Source of the DNA: Clostridia bacterium
GTDB lineage: Bacteria; Bacillota; Clostridia; Oscillospirales; Acutalibacteraceae
NCBI GenBank assembly: GCA_017480115.1
Contig: JAFVBH010000058.1
Coordinates: 1-64,000, forward strand
Direction: 5' to 3'
Length of the DNA: 64,000 bases
Shown: positions 15,466-22,349 of the stretch, piece by piece
Layout of the letters: every line of letters begins with the position of its first letter
Numbering within the stretch: the first letter of the stretch is position 1
Translations under genes and position numbers: made by a program
The notes under the pieces: model-generated
Told to the model about the DNA's origin: nothing
Databases searched by the model: none
What the model saw: only the letters and a program-made list of their open reading frames with translations

Positions 15466-16605
15466 TTACCTTGCGCCTGCGGCGGCAGCGGCTGCCGCAG
15501 TGGGGGTAAAGATTGATGCAATATCCTCGTCGGAAAGCTCCACGCCAAACACGTCCTGATAATAGCTCTTCGCTTCAGCGGTCACGTCTATATCCGCAAA
15601 CAAATCGGGATAAACGCTCTTTGCAAGCCAAAGCAGCGTGACCGGCGTATCCGCGCCGGGGGTGTAGGAACGATACATACCCAGCGGCATTTTGAAAATT
15701 CTGCCGTTCTGCGCGGCGGTCACGGTGCTCCAATCGTAGTTGCCGATGGTATTATTGAGAATATCCTCCGGCTGCGCGGGGGTGAAATTGGTAATAATCA
15801 TCGTATCGGGATTCCACGCGTATACCTGTTCCATGTTCACGGGAACCGCGTTATCCTTTTCGATCTCCTCCGCGACATTGACAGCGCCGACAGCGTCGCA
15901 CCACCACTGCCCGAAGAAATTTTTACCGGACGAGAAAATGCCGTTTTCATCATACCGGAACAGTACGAACATGCGGGCTTTGTCCGCATCGGCGATTCCT
16001 GACACGCGGGACTGCACCAGTTCATACATCTGCTCGCTGCGGGCGCGGACAATATCCGCTTTTGCATCCGCGGGGAACATCTGCGAGATCAGATCGATCC
16101 AGTGATTCAGCGTCTCGATGCAGTTATAGCCCCATTTATTCACTGAGATCATCACAACGCTAAAACCGGCGTTGGTGAGACGCTCGCCCAGTTCCGCGTT
16201 GGCTTCGTTGCAAAACACCACATCGGGGGTCTTCGTCGCCAGTTCCTCGGCGTTGATGTCCTCATCATTGGTGTCAACGTCCAAAATTTCAGGATACAGC
16301 TTGCCCAGCAAACCGTTCCGCGCGGCGGACATGCTTGCCTTGGGAATGGAAACCAGCTTTTCAGCGGAATTGAAAAACACCGTCAGCACGGAGGGCAGCG
16401 GCAGAATACCGACCACCGCGATCCGTTGAATATCCGCAGGAACCGTAACCTCCCTGCCCAGATGATCCACCACCGTGATCTCATCTGCTGTCAGCGCGTC
16501 CGTCGTCGGCTCGGCGTCAACGGAACCGGGTACTGTTTTTTTCGCGCAGCCTGTAAATGCAAACAGCAGGCACAGCGCAAGAAAGAATGCAATTGTCTTT
16601 TTCAT
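15466..16605 (-). CDS. ABC-transporter substrate-binding lipoprotein (FecB/BtuF-type, Peripla_BP_2)
   Basis: 379 residues. The N-terminal signal ends in the lipobox FTGC, giving a lipid-anchored protein. The mature part opens with VVDHLGREVTVPADIQRIAV, the usual start of cluster III binding proteins for iron chelates, heme and cobalamin. Later segments (PDVVFCNEAN, WNPDTMIITNF, WSTVTAAQNGRIFKMPLG) fit the family. The C-terminus ends in an alanine run. ATG 16605 has AAAAGAGGTTGATCTG upstream. It is the last gene of the operon, separated from its permease and ATPase by the three nitrogenase-like genes. This arrangement ties transport to that enzyme. Ligand unknown. Confidence 0.88.
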   Translation of the reverse strand: MKKTIAFFLALCLLFAFTGCAKKTVPGSVDAEPTTDALTADEITVVDHLGREVTVPADIQRIAVVGILPLPSVLTVFFNSAEKLVSIPKASMSAARNGLLGKLYPEILDVDTNDEDINAEELATKTPDVVFCNEANAELGERLTNAGFSVVMISVNKWGYNCIETLNHWIDLISQMFPADAKADIVRARSEQMYELVQSRVSGIADADKARMFVLFRYDENGIFSSGKNFFGQWWCDAVGAVNVAEEIEKDNAVPVNMEQVYAWNPDTMIITNFTPAQPEDILNNTIGNYDWSTVTAAQNGRIFKMPLGMYRSYTPGADTPVTLLWLAKSVYPDLFADIDVTAEAKSYYQDVFGVELSDEDIASIFTPTAAAAAAAGAR

Positions 16606-16673: not shown

Positions 16674-17813
16674 TTACAGCAGTGTAATTTTTTTACCGAT
16701 CAGATTCGGAATTTCCCGGCGGAAGATCCTGCCGGAAAAGCCCTCTGACGGCAACGGAAGAAAGCGCGCGCCCGCAGGACAAACCGGCCGGTACAACGGG
16801 TCCGCGATCACGGTATCCTCCGCGCGCAACAGCGAAACCAGATCCGTTTCATCGGGGCACTGAGCGTCCGCCGCAGTCAAAAGCGGCGCTTCCGTTTCCA
16901 ATGGGCAAAGCACCCGCGCGGTTTTCCCCGTCTGCGCGGAGATCGCCGCCGCCAACGAACCGCAGGTGATACTCTCGCCGATAATCGTATAATCCGCATG
17001 ATCGCCGCCTACACGGTCGGTAAACGCATGTATGACTGTTTGCTGCCGGGCGGCGGTTTTTATATGCGCAAGTAAATTCCCTGAAAAATTCTCCCCGAAC
17101 GGCACGCCCGTTACGTACGGTATGCCATACGTTTTTTGCAGGTATTTTGCCGTTGCCATACCGGCGTAGGAGACTACCAAATTTACATGTGCCGCGGCGG
17201 CGCCTGCAAGTTCCTCCAATGTGGCGCCCATCGCCCATGCGGAAACGACCCGTATCCCGTTTGCTTCCAAAAACGTTTTTATATCTTCCGCGCTGCCGTT
17301 AACAGAAAAATCCAGCGGCGTCAGCCCGAGGATATTGGCGGAGAGTGTATCCGTTTTTTGCGCATCGGCGTTCACAAAGCGTTTTGCCAGCGCGGCAAAC
17401 GCCTCTCCCGCCCCCATAAGGTAGGAACGCATACCGTTGGCGGCAATGCCGAAAGACGGGATTCCCGTTCGTTTTTCGATCACCGCCGCGATCGCGGACA
17501 GATCCGTCCCCACGACCATGGGGATCGGCGATCCCGCCAGCGCGATAAACCGTGGGTGCAGCGCGTTTGCCGCGTCCACCGTATCACGAATCAGCTTCTC
17601 GTCATCTCCCATGATGGCCTCGGTCTCAGAAAGTCCCGAGAGAAAGACCATGCTGTCCGTATCATACCAGCGCGGCTCATCATGGGTATTGTAGGTGGAA
17701 TTGCACCCCGACGCATCGTGCATGATGCTCATACCCCCCAGCTCAAACAGCGCGGAGCAAACCCCCATAGTGTCGGAGGTATACGTTGAAATAAAGGCAG
17801 ATGTTTGTTTCAT
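16674..17813 (-). CDS. Nitrogenase component 1-like protein, subunit B
   Basis: 379 residues of the oxidoreductase/nitrogenase component 1 family (NifD/NifK/BchN/BchB superfamily). The N-terminus carries Cys19 (MGVCSALF) and Cys37 (HDASGCNSTY) at the positions of the first and second cluster ligands. The third ligand position reads AGSPIPMVVGTD, with Ser replacing Cys. A middle Rossmann-like region (WAMGATLEELAGAAAAHVNLVVS) and PYVTGVPFGENF follow. It lacks any FeMo-cofactor-type Cys/His pair that I can recognise. ATG 17813 is preceded by CACGGTGATAGT; an earlier in-frame Met has no such site. It lies 26 nt after subunit A, which it probably dimerises with. Confidence 0.8.
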   Translation of the reverse strand: MKQTSAFISTYTSDTMGVCSALFELGGMSIMHDASGCNSTYNTHDEPRWYDTDSMVFLSGLSETEAIMGDDEKLIRDTVDAANALHPRFIALAGSPIPMVVGTDLSAIAAVIEKRTGIPSFGIAANGMRSYLMGAGEAFAALAKRFVNADAQKTDTLSANILGLTPLDFSVNGSAEDIKTFLEANGIRVVSAWAMGATLEELAGAAAAHVNLVVSYAGMATAKYLQKTYGIPYVTGVPFGENFSGNLLAHIKTAARQQTVIHAFTDRVGGDHADYTIIGESITCGSLAAAISAQTGKTARVLCPLETEAPLLTAADAQCPDETDLVSLLRAEDTVIADPLYRPVCPAGARFLPLPSEGFSGRIFRREIPNLIGKKITLL

Positions 17814-17839
17814 ACTATCACCGTGTTCTGAATTACGCG

Positions 17840-19162
17840 TTAAAAGCAGCAGCCGCACCCCAGCCCTTTAATCTGGATCAGCGATTTTGTATCCTTTTCA
17901 TGCATGTATGCATCTTGGATCAACCCGCACAGCCGGACAATGCCGTCAAAGCCCAGCATACCGCCGGTCTCCACCACGTTGACAAAATGGCGGGAGGCGG
18001 TAAAATACGCCGCCTTTTGCCCAATGGCAAGGATTCTCTCCTGCGAGGCTTGCGGACGGGCAAACCGCATGGCTGCATGCGCCGTGGGGTACAGCATCAG
18101 CGAGGGACAAAGCGTCCGTATGCTTTCAAAATCGGATGCTTCCTCTGCCAGAAAGCCGTCTGCATAAACGGTTTTGACCTGAACACCGTACCGCAGCAGC
18201 AACCTCGCCAGACTCAGCGGTCGAAACGTTGCGGTATAGTCGATGGCAACGGGTGTATTCCCCAGCAGCGCTTTTGTTTCCCGCAGCGCCTGATCTGCTT
18301 GCTGCCGCAGGGGGGCGACGTCGGGACAATCCGTATGCAGGATTTCCGCCAAACGGTGAAGCGTCGCTTCAATCTCATCTAAGTCATAAGACGCGGGCAG
18401 ATAATAATGAACGGCGCCCATGCGCCTTGCCAGCGTATCGCCCGCCGGAACCGCGGCGGGATTATAGGTCAGATTGACCGCACTTGCCGCCATTTGTTTA
18501 TATTCTGCATAGCTCTTTACCGTCGTAATATCCCGCAGGGTATAACCGGCATTTTTAATCAACTGCACAAACTCGCTCGACGCCAATGTGGGCAGATCAT
18601 TACCGATGATATTGACCGCCCGCGGATCAAGCGGCAGGGGCGTGAGCGCCGCATACAACTGCCGACGCATCAACTGGTCGGGATTCAGCCCGCTCTTTCG
18701 CATGATCGGGTTCATATAACAATCCGTAAAATCGATCTGCGGGAACCGTTCTCTTAAAATTTTATAAACCCGTTTCAGATTCGTCACAAGAAAATGATGA
18801 ATGCAGCTGGTATAAATCAGCACTGCGGGCGGCTGTTGCGGCAAACGGTGCAGTATATCCGTCACCCCGTCGATGATCAGTTCCTCCATATCCCCTTCAA
18901 GGACGTTGTTTTCTTTGATCGCGATCATCGAAAATCTGTCCTGCGCGTTCATCTCCGCAGCGGTGAGCACCACACCCCGCAGACACCCTTGGGCGCATAC
19001 AAAAATTTCGTGCGCGCCGGGAATCAGCATGCCTGTATGGACAATGTTCCAGGTGCCCCGCGCCGGCGCGCTGTATTCCAGCCCCGCCGGAAACGGCGAC
19101 GGAAAACCCGCGTCTTTGATTTTAACGCCAACCGCTTGGGCGGCTTGTATTCGTTTCAGCAT
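17840..19162 (-). CDS. Nitrogenase component 1-like protein, subunit A, with Cys-rich tail
   Basis: 440 residues, a second and more divergent component 1-like subunit. Near the N-terminus TGMLIPGAHEIFVCAQGC has Cys56 and Cys60 around the second ligand position. The first ligand position is not Cys. The third is present as Cys120 in YTSCIHHFL. Middle segments NIIGNDLPTLASSEF and AVHYYLPASYDLDEIE resemble the family. The last residues read GLGCGCCF (Cys436, 438, 439), an unusual exposed cysteine cluster that could bind metal. Cysteines lost in subunit B are kept here and vice versa, which fits one shared cluster at the A-B interface. ATG 19162 follows CGAGGGGTAAATT, 3 nt after nifH-like. Confidence 0.78.
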   Translation of the reverse strand: MLKRIQAAQAVGVKIKDAGFPSPFPAGLEYSAPARGTWNIVHTGMLIPGAHEIFVCAQGCLRGVVLTAAEMNAQDRFSMIAIKENNVLEGDMEELIIDGVTDILHRLPQQPPAVLIYTSCIHHFLVTNLKRVYKILRERFPQIDFTDCYMNPIMRKSGLNPDQLMRRQLYAALTPLPLDPRAVNIIGNDLPTLASSEFVQLIKNAGYTLRDITTVKSYAEYKQMAASAVNLTYNPAAVPAGDTLARRMGAVHYYLPASYDLDEIEATLHRLAEILHTDCPDVAPLRQQADQALRETKALLGNTPVAIDYTATFRPLSLARLLLRYGVQVKTVYADGFLAEEASDFESIRTLCPSLMLYPTAHAAMRFARPQASQERILAIGQKAAYFTASRHFVNVVETGGMLGFDGIVRLCGLIQDAYMHEKDTKSLIQIKGLGCGCCF

Positions 19163-19165
19163 AAT

Positions 19166-19921
19166 TTACCCCTCGCAGCTGCGCAGTAATGCATCGGCAA
19201 GGGCGCGGTATTGCCCCGCCATGGGCGACTCCGGAAACGCCTCGATCACGGTCTTCCCCAAATCCTCGGCGTCGGTGACGGTATCGCTGCGATCCAGCGT
19301 GCCAACAACCGTCGTATGCACATCGTCCGCCAGCTCACGTACCTTTTCGTCCTCGTTTTTCACATTGCGTCGGTTCAGGATCAATCCGCCCAGCGCAGCA
19401 TAACCACGGTCGCGGAAATTCTCGGTCGCCACGGCGATATTTGCCGCCGCGTGGATCGCCATATTCTCCCCCGAGGTGACGATAAACACCTTATCCGCGT
19501 AGCCGCCGCGCATGGGCATTGAAAATCCGCCGCAGACAACGTCCCCCAGCACATCGTAAAAGACCACGTCGGGCTGATAAACCGCATACGCGCCCTTTTC
19601 CTCCAATTTATCCAGCGCCGCCGCAATTCCGCGCCCCGCGCAGCCCAGCCCAGGCGTCGGTCCCCCCGCCTCAACGCAGACTACGCCGCCATATCCCTCG
19701 GCGACCATCTCTGCCAGCGTGAAATCATTCTGCCTGTCCCTGACAAGGGACAACACCGTGGCAAGGGGCGCCTCCCCGCGCAGCAGCGCCGTAGAATCCG
19801 CCTTGGGATCACAGCCGATCTGCATGACCTTATAGCCTTTATCCGCCAACGCGGCGGCAACATTGGATACAGTGGTGGATTTGCCGATTCCACCCTTGCC
19901 GTAAACTGCAATCTTTATCAT
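19166..19921 (-). CDS. NifH/BchL-like nitrogenase iron protein family ATPase
   Basis: 251 residues. The deviant Walker [10 protein letters not shown] (9-17) and [10 protein letters not shown] follow the Fe-protein pattern. The two cluster-ligand cysteines are present: Cys94 in [11 protein letters not shown] and Cys130 in [16 protein letters not shown]. It should form a homodimer holding one [4Fe-4S] cluster and pass electrons, driven by ATP, to the neighbouring component 1-like subunits. It is shorter than true NifH (~290 residues), lacking the usual C-terminal extension. No nifB, nifE or nifN is near, so it is unlikely to be a real nitrogenase. It lies in one operon with the ABC importer. 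Confidence 0.88.
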
Positions 19922-19982: not shown

Positions 19983-20026
19983 TTCAATCATGGTTTATCG
20001 GCTATGCCGATCAATCAGAATTCACA
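19983..20026. repeat. Small mosaic repeat fragment
   Basis: The fragment TTTATCGGCTATGCCGATCAATCAGAATT, read in pieces, is a degraded copy of the intergenic palindrome. It is preceded by ATGATTCATCATTCATTT, the reverse of the GAATGATGAAT module. It fills the gap between the NifH-like gene and the ABC ATPase and overlaps the ATPase stop. Confidence 0.6.
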
Positions 20027-20818
20027 TATCTCCACCGGCACTACATCCGGCACGGTTTTTCCTTCGGCTTGCATCTGCCCGATCGCCACCTGTACGCCGA
20101 AAGCGTTTCGGATATTTTCTTCGGTAATGATCGCGTCCGCGCCGCCGAACCGGCTGCCTCCGTCTGCCGACAGCAGCAAAGCTTTATTCGCCCGCTGCAA
20201 AGCGTGCGCGGGGAAATGGGTATTAAAGACACAGGTCATACCCTCTGCCGCCAGACTTGACACCGCCTCCAAGACGAGCAACTGATTTTTAAAATCGAGA
20301 TTAGACTCCGGTTCGTCAAGCACCAGGATCTGCGGCTGCGCGGCAAGCGCGCGGGCGATCAGCGTCATTTGCAGTTCGCCGCCGGAGAGCTCCGTACATC
20401 GCTTTTGCGCCAGATGCCCGATACGTAAACGCGACAAAGACGCGTCCGCATACGCAAGGTCTGTTGCGGACGGTTTTGCAAAAGTGCCGATATGGCTGCC
20501 TCTGCCCAGCAACACAAATTCCAGCACCGTCGTCGCGCTTGCCGTTCCCTTTGCCTGCGGCACGTAGGCAACTGTACGCCATAACGCACGATGGGGGATC
20601 TCTTTCATATTTTTCCCGTCCAAAAAACTACCGCCCGACGACCATTTTAAAAATCCCAGTATGCACCGTAACAGCGTGGTCTTTCCCGCGCCGTTCGCGC
20701 CGAGAATAGCGACCACATCACCGGGCGCGGCGGAAAAACTGACGTTTTTCAAGACCTCTTTGCCGCCTCTTTTATAAGAAAAGCAGCCGTTGTCCACGGA
20801 AAGTATCATAAGCGCCAC
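20015..20818 (-). CDS. ABC transporter ATPase (FecE/BtuD-type)
   Basis: 267 residues. It has Walker A GANGAGKTT (about residues 40-48), the Q-loop at AYVPQAKG, the signature ELSGGELQMTLIARAL, Walker B ILVLDEPESNLDF and a switch His in NTHFP. It energises the FecCD-type permease that overlaps its start by 13 nt, importing a metallophore, heme or corrinoid-like compound. The family's usual LSGGQ reads LSGGE. Its stop lies in a repeat fragment, 93 nt before the NifH-like gene. Confidence 0.92.
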   Translation of the reverse strand: MALMILSVDNGCFSYKRGGKEVLKNVSFSAAPGDVVAILGANGAGKTTLLRCILGFLKWSSGGSFLDGKNMKEIPHRALWRTVAYVPQAKGTASATTVLEFVLLGRGSHIGTFAKPSATDLAYADASLSRLRIGHLAQKRCTELSGGELQMTLIARALAAQPQILVLDEPESNLDFKNQLLVLEAVSSLAAEGMTCVFNTHFPAHALQRANKALLLSADGGSRFGGADAIITEENIRNAFGVQVAIGQMQAEGKTVPDVVPVEICEF

Positions 20819-21840
20819 CCTCCGCTTCTGCGCATCAATACAATAAAGAACGGCGCGCCGATCATGGCGGTCAGAATGGAAAGCGGTAATTCCGACGGCG
20901 TCAGCGTCCGCGCAAGGGTATCGACGATCACCGTAAAGGCGGAACCGATCATCACCGACGCGGGCACCAGCGCCAAATGATTATTCCCATAGCGCATGCG
21001 GGCGATATGGGGGACCAACAGTCCGATCCAGCCCACCTGCCCGCACATAGAAACACATGCTGCGGTCACCGCTGTGGCGCAAAGCACGGTCACGGCGCGC
21101 ATCGCCGGCAGGTTCATGCCTGTGGCGCGCGCTTCGTCCTCTGAGAGGGTGAGGATATTCAGCCGCCATCGCAAAATATATAATACGAAAATGCCGATCA
21201 GGACCGCGGGCGCGCCCAGCGCTAACGATCTGTAATTTGCGGCGCTCATGCTGCCCATCAACCAGTAAGTAATAGCTGGCAGCTGCGATTCGGTATCGGC
21301 AACGAATTTTACAAGAGAGATCAACGCGGTGAACAGCGAGCCGACCATAATGCCCGACAGGATCATCATACCCAACGGCGACCGCCCCTTGGACGAACCG
21401 GCAAGATAAGTCAGCAGCACCGCCAGCAGCCCGAACAACATCGCGCTCCCCTGCACCCAAAGCAATCCCGCGCCGAAGAGCAGCGCCAGCGCCGCGCCGA
21501 AACAGGCGCCCGAGGCGACGCCCAGCGTATCGGGCGTCGCGAGGGGGTTTGCGAATAAACTTTGAAAAGCGCAGCCAGAAACCGAAAGTCCCGCGCCCAC
21601 CAACAGCGCAAGCAGAATGCGCGGCAGGCGGTATTTCCAAAGCACGGATTCCAGCTGCGTATCCAGCGCCGCGTCCATGCCGAACTTTTCCCCGACCGAA
21701 CGAAAAATATACGCCGAAGACACCTGCATGCGTCCCACCGCCAAGGCGATCATGACCGCCAGCACAGGCAACAGCAGCAAGACCGCTCGGCTGCCCGCCG
21801 TCAGTCCGCCCGCGTTTTGCAAGGGTGATCGTTTGCTCAT
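20806..21840 (-). CDS. FecCD-family ABC transporter permease
   Basis: 344 residues with about nine or ten membrane helices. The family landmarks are LPRILLALLVGAGLSVSG near residue 75, FANPLATPDTLGVASGACFGA, GxxxG-rich helices, and WIGLLVPHIAR near the C-terminus. It forms the membrane channel of a siderophore/heme/vitamin B12-type importer with the ATPase and the lipoprotein. The start overlaps the stop of the upstream regulator-like gene by 4 nt, so translation is coupled. Confidence 0.93.
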   Translation of the reverse strand: MSKRSPLQNAGGLTAGSRAVLLLLPVLAVMIALAVGRMQVSSAYIFRSVGEKFGMDAALDTQLESVLWKYRLPRILLALLVGAGLSVSGCAFQSLFANPLATPDTLGVASGACFGAALALLFGAGLLWVQGSAMLFGLLAVLLTYLAGSSKGRSPLGMMILSGIMVGSLFTALISLVKFVADTESQLPAITYWLMGSMSAANYRSLALGAPAVLIGIFVLYILRWRLNILTLSEDEARATGMNLPAMRAVTVLCATAVTAACVSMCGQVGWIGLLVPHIARMRYGNNHLALVPASVMIGSAFTVIVDTLARTLTPSELPLSILTAMIGAPFFIVLMRRSGGWRL

Positions 21841-22094
21841 GCCTTTGTCCCCGTGTTGGAATATACCGTTTTTGCGCTTACGCCGTCCAGCCTGCCGATC
21901 TTCCCCGATACGGCGCTGATCTTATCCTGCGGCGCGTCAACGGCAAGACTGATAATATTAATTCCCTTTTCCCGATAAGGAATCCCCATTCTGCCGATGA
22001 TATACGCGCTGTATTCATGCAAAATTTCATTCAGCCGAACGGTAGAATCCGGATTTTCCACAATAATGGCGATGATGGCGACTCTGGTGTCCAT
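21837..22094 (-). CDS. Small ACT-like protein, TM1266 / putative iron-only hydrogenase system regulator family
   Basis: 85 residues with a ferredoxin-like beta-alpha-beta pattern: RVAIIAIIVENPDSTVRLNE, IIGRMGIPYREKGINIIS, and DKISAVSGKIGRLDGVSAKT. This matches small NikR/ACT-like proteins named for TM1266, often found beside [FeFe]-hydrogenase maturation genes. No hydrogenase gene is present here; it leads the nitrogenase-like operon instead. It has no DNA-binding domain, so it may sense a ligand or metal. ATG 22094 has GGAGG five nt upstream; a GTG at 22106 would lie before that site. Confidence 0.72.
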   Translation of the reverse strand: MDTRVAIIAIIVENPDSTVRLNEILHEYSAYIIGRMGIPYREKGINIISLAVDAPQDKISAVSGKIGRLDGVSAKTVYSNTGTKA

Positions 22095-22106
22095 AATATC
22101 CTCCAC

Positions 22107-22250
22107 AAGAAAGCGGGTTGACGCTTTTGTTCTACGCCATCGCCGCTGCCCATTAGGGCAGGTTCGGCGGGCGTTATAATTTTTTTTAAATAGGAAACGA
22201 GTTGTTTCCTATTTAAAAAAATGCCGCACCTGTAACAGATGCGGCATAAA
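22107..22250 (-). promoter_or_regulatory. Structured leader / candidate attenuator of the nitrogenase-like operon
   Basis: Read on the minus strand, a 13-bp hairpin (22247-22221, ATGCCGCATCTGT paired with ACAGGTGCGGCAT) is followed by a run of seven T, a textbook terminator. Its T-run is also the left arm of a second, 18-bp stem (TTTTTTTAAATAGGAAAC with its complement, 22221-22181). A third imperfect stem (ACGCC-GCCG-CTGCCC with its partners, about 22175-22133) and a small AAGCG/CGCTT hairpin lie before the ribosome site of the TM1266-like gene. Overlapping hairpins suggest conditional read-through. I do not recognise a known riboswitch class. Confidence 0.5.
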
Positions 22251-22320
22251 TAGAATGATTCCGTATTATAACCGTATCTTCCGTCTCAAACCGTATTTTT
22301 AACGTCAGAACACAGTCAAA

Positions 22321-22349
22321 ATTATAGCACTGTTTGCATGGTTTGTCAA
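22321..22349 (-). promoter_or_regulatory. Perfect-consensus sigma-A promoter overlapping the XRE stop codon
   Basis: On the minus strand TTGACA (22349-22344), a 17-nt spacer and TATAAT (22326-22321). The -35 box contains the TGA stop of the XRE gene. Transcription would start near 22314 and meet the terminator at 22247 after a leader of about 65 nt. That leader contains three copies of ATACGG. Confidence 0.8.

Follow-up and report, generated by a model that had tools for sequence, protein, structure and literature searches.

A nitrogenase-like reductase operon of Clostridia linked to [FeFe]-hydrogenase maturation genes in genomes that mostly lack HydG

A nitrogenase-like system of gut bacteria, HAB, is encoded alongside [FeFe]-hydrogenase maturation genes in Clostridia and occurs mostly in genomes from which the maturase HydG is missing. 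It comprises a NifH-like reductase (H) and two component 1-like subunits (A and B), and was analysed here from a 64,000-nucleotide stretch of a Clostridia contig (the window, i.e., the whole stretch of DNA under analysis). We put at roughly two in three the probability that HAB works, in the manner of dark-operative protochlorophyllide reductase (DPOR), in HydG-independent [FeFe]-hydrogenase maturation, acting on a Fe-CN/CO precursor that is either imported or made by HypFCDE. HAB may thus represent a route to the [FeFe]-hydrogenase active site that has gone unrecognised. This link to hydrogenase maturation, unseen in the initial annotation of the A and B subunits, outranks in importance the cysteine pattern that the annotation described.

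Operon context and the absence of HydG

The operon lies on the minus strand of the window and reads, 5' to 3', TM1266, FecCD permease, ATPase, H, A, B, and binding lipoprotein (Table 1). The TM1266-family gene scored 116 bits against TIGR03959 (cut-off 60.8), the importer is FecCD/BtuC-like, and a profile search identified A and B as the sole two PF00148 proteins of the source genome.

Table 1. Positions in the window of the genes, cysteine codons, and leader elements discussed in the text.
Feature	Position	Strand	Evidence
Importer substrate-binding lipoprotein	15466..16602	-	PF01497, E 7.1e-16
Component 1-like subunit B, 379 aa counted from ATG	16674..17813	-	PF00148, E 8.7e-28
B Cys37 codon, predicted ligand position 2	17703..17705	-	116/118 pairs; aligns with NifN-domain position 2 cysteine
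B Cys19 codon, rejected as a ligand (not conserved)	17757..17759	-	71/90 core pairs; middle of helix 14-25 in model
Component 1-like subunit A, 440 aa	17840..19162	-	PF00148 (Oxidored_nitro), E 1.2e-15
A Cys120 codon, predicted ligand position 3	18803..18805	-	118/118 pairs; aligns with NifE position 3 cysteine (profile alignment)
A Cys60 codon, predicted ligand position 2	18983..18985	-	118/118 pairs; N-terminus of helix 58-70
A Cys56 codon, core-specific fourth-ligand candidate	18995..18997	-	90/90 core pairs; end of strand 51-57 in model
NifH-like ATP-dependent reductase H	19166..19921	-	PF00142, E 3.6e-85
Importer ABC transporter ATPase	20015..20818	-	PF00005, E 1.6e-30
Importer FecCD-type permease	20806..21840	-	PF01032, E 5.3e-84
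TM1266-family putative regulator of the iron-only hydrogenase system	21837..22094	-	TIGR03959, E 4.8e-34
Intrinsic terminator-like hairpin between leader RNA and TM1266	22221..22247	-	Sequence
Conserved 45-nt leader RNA motif, candidate riboswitch	22266..22310	-	Covariance model R1, 53 bits; covariation
Promoter TTGACA-17-TATAAT, TG before second hexamer	22321..22349	-	12/12 matches

Linkage of the HAB operon to HydE, HydF, or TM1266 was shown across Clostridia. Of 80 loci, 60 link H-A-B to TM1266 and 44 link it to HydE or HydF; every one of the 31 loci that span 20 kb or more carries at least one gene from among HydE, HydF, TM1266, and Hyp. One cluster (L050) contains, in order, HydF, HydE, H-A (fused), B, a second set H', A', B', then HypF, HypD, and HypE, where HydF, HydE, and the three Hyp proteins all score above NCBIfam equivalog cut-offs; another (L179) reads TM1266, H', A', B', HypF, HypD, HypE, H, A, B, HydF. 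HydE was present in 28/28 core genomes, and an [FeFe]-hydrogenase in all core genomes searched but one 1.2-Mb assembly. Single-frame natural fusions join H with A and A' with B' (L050:7908-10001; L177:4481-6988; L178:12690-15317), which supports the subunits acting together.

Lactic acid bacteria have the system too: Loigolactobacillus binensis (L096) and L. rennini (L060) encode it along with an [FeFe]-hydrogenase and HydE/HydF. L. binensis has a second A-B pair and a total of six genes for binding proteins; the same stretch in L. rennini contains, as judged by eye, a ModE-like HTH gene and a DUF364-like gene.

HydG (TIGR03955) is a radical SAM H-cluster maturase that uses tyrosine and SAM and has been credited with providing the CO and cyanide of the H-cluster. 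In a class sample of 291 genomes (195 HydF+, 183 HydG+), all ten core-HAB genomes were HydF+HydG-, core HAB was present in 0/177 HydF+HydG+ genomes (Fisher p = 2.5e-12), and 177 of the 185 other HydF+ genomes contained HydG. The same swap was observed within four families (f1, f5, f44, and f46; combined p = 8e-5), and a phylum sample in partial overlap with the class sample also yielded 10/10 core genomes that were HydG-. HydG was kept in three of 28 core genomes (L. binensis, C. drakei, and I. bartlettii), all of them among the ten named core genomes. The combination expected of the proposed HydG-independent maturation, i.e., HydE, HydF, and [FeFe]-hydrogenase present with HydG absent, was found in both samples.

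A corresponding gap has been described in acetogens. Five of eight Clostridium acetogens, among them C. ljungdahlii, contain HydE, HydF, and HypCDEF with no recognisable HydG, and the three others have HydG (PMC9431212). The same study gives no firm explanation but suggests that HydG may be atypical or that diatomics may be scavenged, and the term 'nitrogenase' matches solely in its reference list (PMC9431212). Nothing found in the open-access literature assigns a nitrogenase-like protein a part in assembling the H-cluster, and this literature leaves the acetogen gap unexplained.

A divergent HydG or ThiH-like tyrosine lyase, with HAB unrelated to the gap, would be another explanation. The atypical HydG proposed for some acetogens (PMC9431212) would fit it, as would matches of approximately 200 bits to the HydG model, likely ThiH, in several genomes. 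However, one genome (G000) and several other core genomes gave no HydG-model match above HydE level, and the anticorrelation between HAB and HydG would go unexplained; we consider this very unlikely. Against our main reading, two complete genomes (G283 and G160) are HydE+ HydF+ and contain neither HydG nor HAB, which requires either a third route or a HydG that has diverged.

Supply modules and leader RNA

HypCDEF assembles the Fe(CN)2CO unit of [NiFe]-hydrogenases and provides the pathway for its cyanide ligands. Of the 80 loci, 59 contained the binding protein, 16 contained H'A'B' with HypF/HypD/HypE, and none contained both (p = 7.5e-13); the five with neither module include some short contigs. 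At the genome level, HypD was present in 11/11 H'A'B' genomes compared to 0/9 importer genomes, and the core tree requires at least three switches between modules. The large subunit of NiFe-hydrogenase was detected in three of the 11 H'A'B' genomes searched and in none of the other eight, so that hypFCDE must serve something else there. Import and Fe(CN)2CO-type synthesis look interchangeable, from which we infer that the imported substrate is an iron-cyanide/carbonyl species, with the caveat that FecCD systems import many things.

These distributions bear on a different role, in which HAB contributes to H-cluster maturation without chemically replacing HydG, e.g., by delivering low-potential electrons to HydE/HydF or by activating the finished cofactor, with CO and cyanide drawn from free cellular pools. 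Linkage to HydE, HydF, and TM1266 is consistent with such a role, and in vitro activation without HydG of approximately 1% has been cited (PMC9431212). Neither the loss of HydG from the core genomes of the class sample, set against its retention in most other HydF+ genomes, nor the finding of HypFCDE exactly where the importer is missing fits this role, which we regard as unlikely.

Our statistics were limited to the core clade, leaving out a second group of relatives (group II, Aii/Bii). The core clade was monophyletic in a concatenated tree with a support of 0.74, and the A'B' set had full support. Group II loci (L163-L176 and L113) encode H-A-B, mostly with binding protein, FecCD permease, and ATPase, contain no hydrogenase genes, and mostly lie in HydG+ genomes; a plasmid search mainly returned a copy of this type from Treponema saccharophilum (plasmid pTS1, L113). 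Treating all relatives as one family was rejected, since group II lacks hydrogenase genes and HydG is kept in 11/14 of its genomes. Group II operons show that a HAB-type module can serve another purpose.

HAB might instead reduce a tetrapyrrole, a corrinoid, or a siderophore-like compound taken up by the importer, with chemistry similar to that of DPOR or CfbCD, and have hydrogenase neighbours through shared iron or redox regulation. The FecCD/BtuC-like importer, the group II operons that consist of reductase and importer only, and the predicted single-cluster DPOR-like architecture are all compatible with this function. It would, however, explain neither the loss of HydG nor the exchange of the importer for hypFCDE with H'A'B', and we judge it quite unlikely.

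The window operon is preceded by a 98-nt leader that folds with a z-score of -4.2 and contains the motif CU-GA-CAUC-GA-AAU..loop..AUU-GA-GAUG-GA-AG. Apart from the window, over 30 core loci carry this motif, with 37 sites in all (E < 1e-4), and it stands at the head of importer-type as well as Hyp-type operons (e.g., L033, L034, L035, L046, L053, and L181); a search with covariance model R1 returned none of the group II loci. In the inner stem, 96% of cells are paired and two-sided changes are frequent, covariation across the whole structure was 0.382 compared to 0.199 after shuffling, and the 3' strand of the motif is able to pair with the 5' arm of the terminator. Neither the leader of the window nor those of four related loci matched Rfam 15. 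The leader RNA is a candidate for a new riboswitch of the HAB pathway. Between its terminator and TM1266 lies an inverted repeat, AATAGGAAAC-aactc-GTTTCCTATT, with an A-run after it (window 22194-22218, minus strand), that is possibly an operator or a plus-strand terminator.

Conserved cysteines and the predicted cluster of A-B

By Pfam score and fold, A-B is a component 1 type oxidoreductase. A and B scored 57.8 and 97.7 bits against PF00148 (gathering score 28.6), and single-chain AF2 models (pLDDT of 88 for A and 84 for B) matched NifEN, NifDK, MarDK, and BchNB structures in Foldseek. Among known subunits, BchB was the best match to the B model by fold (TM 0.74).

Named contigs, 80 in number, and a series of genome samples yielded 118 A-B pairs, 90 of them core pairs. 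The five cysteines named in the initial annotation (A Cys56, Cys60, and Cys120; B Cys19 and Cys37) are present as read, and A indeed lacks the position 1 cysteine, with Ser31 in its place and no cysteine nearby. Cys60 and Cys120 of A, proposed as ligands 2 and 3, proved invariant, and both lie at helix starts after core strands in the single-chain model. A56, A60, A120, and B37 occur together in 88/90 core pairs; the remaining two, from L. binensis, have Tyr37 and instead contain Cys13. The total of four cysteines is therefore constant over all 90 core pairs, including those with the relocated cysteine, and this constancy is more than chance.

The complementary loss that had been proposed, with B keeping positions 1 and 2 and carrying serine at position 3, did not hold. 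In 19 of the 90 core pairs, residue 19 of B is Ala, Asn, Pro, or Ser, and Cys19 lies inside a helix of the model; the Cys70-Cys95 spacing of NifK would presumably put position 1 of B near residue 12. In a profile alignment, it is the invariant Pro96, rather than Ser95, that aligns with position 3 of B. With Cys19 not conserved and Pro96 at position 3, the conserved set is three cysteines from A and one from B, not two from each. Conservation across the family, on which the annotation had staked its proposal, hence holds for the three A cysteines and B37 and fails for B Cys19. We also rejected the notion that Cys19 compensates for cysteines missing elsewhere, as the four-cysteine total of core pairs holds without it.

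The annotation's preference for one DPOR-like bridging [4Fe-4S] cluster over a P-cluster fared better, given four conserved cysteines at homologous interface positions and a BchB-like B subunit. Nitrogenase NifDK has six P-cluster cysteines, and four are conserved here. B Ser215, which is serine in 89/90 core pairs, aligns with NifD Cys275, the FeMo-cofactor ligand, and so no M-cluster is expected. Since ligands for both the P-cluster and FeMo-cofactor are missing, the simplest reading is that A-B likely holds one bridging [4Fe-4S] cluster. Some pairs have further cysteines close to the site (A32 or A34, B19), which could be taken to suggest a P-cluster-like eight-iron cluster or a second cofactor cluster, but the shortfall from six ligands, the proline at position 3, and the serine at the FeMo-cofactor position in B make this highly improbable.

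The A'B' paralogues contain A59, A60, A120, and B37, usually with B32, and have Ala, Gly, or Ser at A56. Group II pairs vary more, some with A31 (position 1), some with A56, some with both, and some with B35, and two have only three cysteines. Hence A60, A120, and B37 form the fixed part of the set, and it is the predicted fourth ligand that moves. The flexible C-terminal tail of A also bears cysteines (KGLGCxCC; window 17840-17857, minus strand); this feature is specific to the core clade, with one or more cysteines among the final 12 residues in 88/90 core pairs and in 0/13 of group II.

Proposed pathway and comparison with known systems

The data establish the fold, the set of conserved cysteines, the linkage to maturation genes, the loss of HydG, and the alternation of the two supply modules. 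On this basis, we propose chemistry that HAB would carry out as follows. H, with one [4Fe-4S] cluster and ATP, would pass electrons one at a time to an A-B heterodimer holding one [4Fe-4S] cluster on A Cys56, Cys60, and Cys120 and B Cys37. A Fe-CN/CO-type precursor would be imported, as in the window type, or made by HypFCDE with the second set H'A'B'. HAB would then reduce or remodel this Fe-CN/CO unit to an iron synthon, which the cysteine-bearing tail of A may pass onward, and HydE and HydF, kept where HydG is lost, would convert the synthon to the [2Fe] subsite. More tentatively, and as a possibility that we favour less, these features may together amount to a second, tyrosine-independent H-cluster pathway in which one or more nitrogenase-like reductases convert a Fe(CN)x(CO)y unit, produced by HypFCDE or taken up from outside, into the HydE/HydF precursor, with regulation by a new riboswitch class and a migrated fourth ligand to the interfacial [4Fe-4S] cluster.

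Such a pathway would give a function to one uncharacterised nitrogenase-like clade, tie [NiFe] to [FeFe] cofactor chemistry via the shared HypFCDE, and add genes for hydrogenase production in other hosts. Its importer form would imply that gut bacteria are able to take up organometallic cofactor parts. For industrial acetogens such as C. ljungdahlii, which carry [FeFe]-hydrogenase genes without a recognisable HydG, HAB is a named gene set that is amenable to knockout and could answer why.

The role proposed for HAB resembles that of HydG in supplying an iron-CO-CN synthon to HydE/HydF, and HydG is usually present where HAB is absent. In contrast to HydG, HAB belongs to an unrelated protein family and would use ATP-driven reduction rather than tyrosine and SAM. 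With respect to HypCDEF, hypFCDE adjoins the H'A'B' and HAB sets in the 16 loci noted above; unlike in its established setting, most H'A'B' genomes lack a NiFe-hydrogenase large subunit.

HAB is NifHDK-like, as are CfbCD, MarHDK, and IsrHDK (group IV). The cysteine set of A-B is uneven, as is that of IsrDK (1+3), for which one [4Fe-4S] cluster was suggested by the authors (PMC11423573). Unlike these systems, the window operon contains no radical SAM NifB-like partner and has another genomic setting. A and B are two distinct subunits and not the single-type homodimer of CfbCD, and H falls below the equivalog cut-offs for CfbC (301.6 bits compared to 402) and nifH. Membership of NifDK is contradicted by the four conserved cysteines and by Ser215 of B.

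The closest parallel is DPOR (BchL/BchN/BchB), whose interfacial cluster is bound by three cysteines from N and one Asp from B. Both systems have three components, with the same 3+1 ligand pattern in the predicted cluster of A-B, a B ligand at position 2 (BchB Asp36 presumably occupies the place of B Cys37), and a B fold that fits BchB. They differ in that the single B ligand is Cys37 rather than Asp, that Cys56, lying four residues ahead of position 2, stands in for the position 1 cysteine of A, and that HAB is linked to hydrogenase maturases and an importer without photosynthesis genes. Scores also fall below the equivalog cut-offs for BchB (67.9 bits compared to 490) and BchL (188.5 compared to 345). 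As judged from scores and ligands, HAB would work like DPOR yet stand outside DPOR, nitrogenase, and CfbCD.
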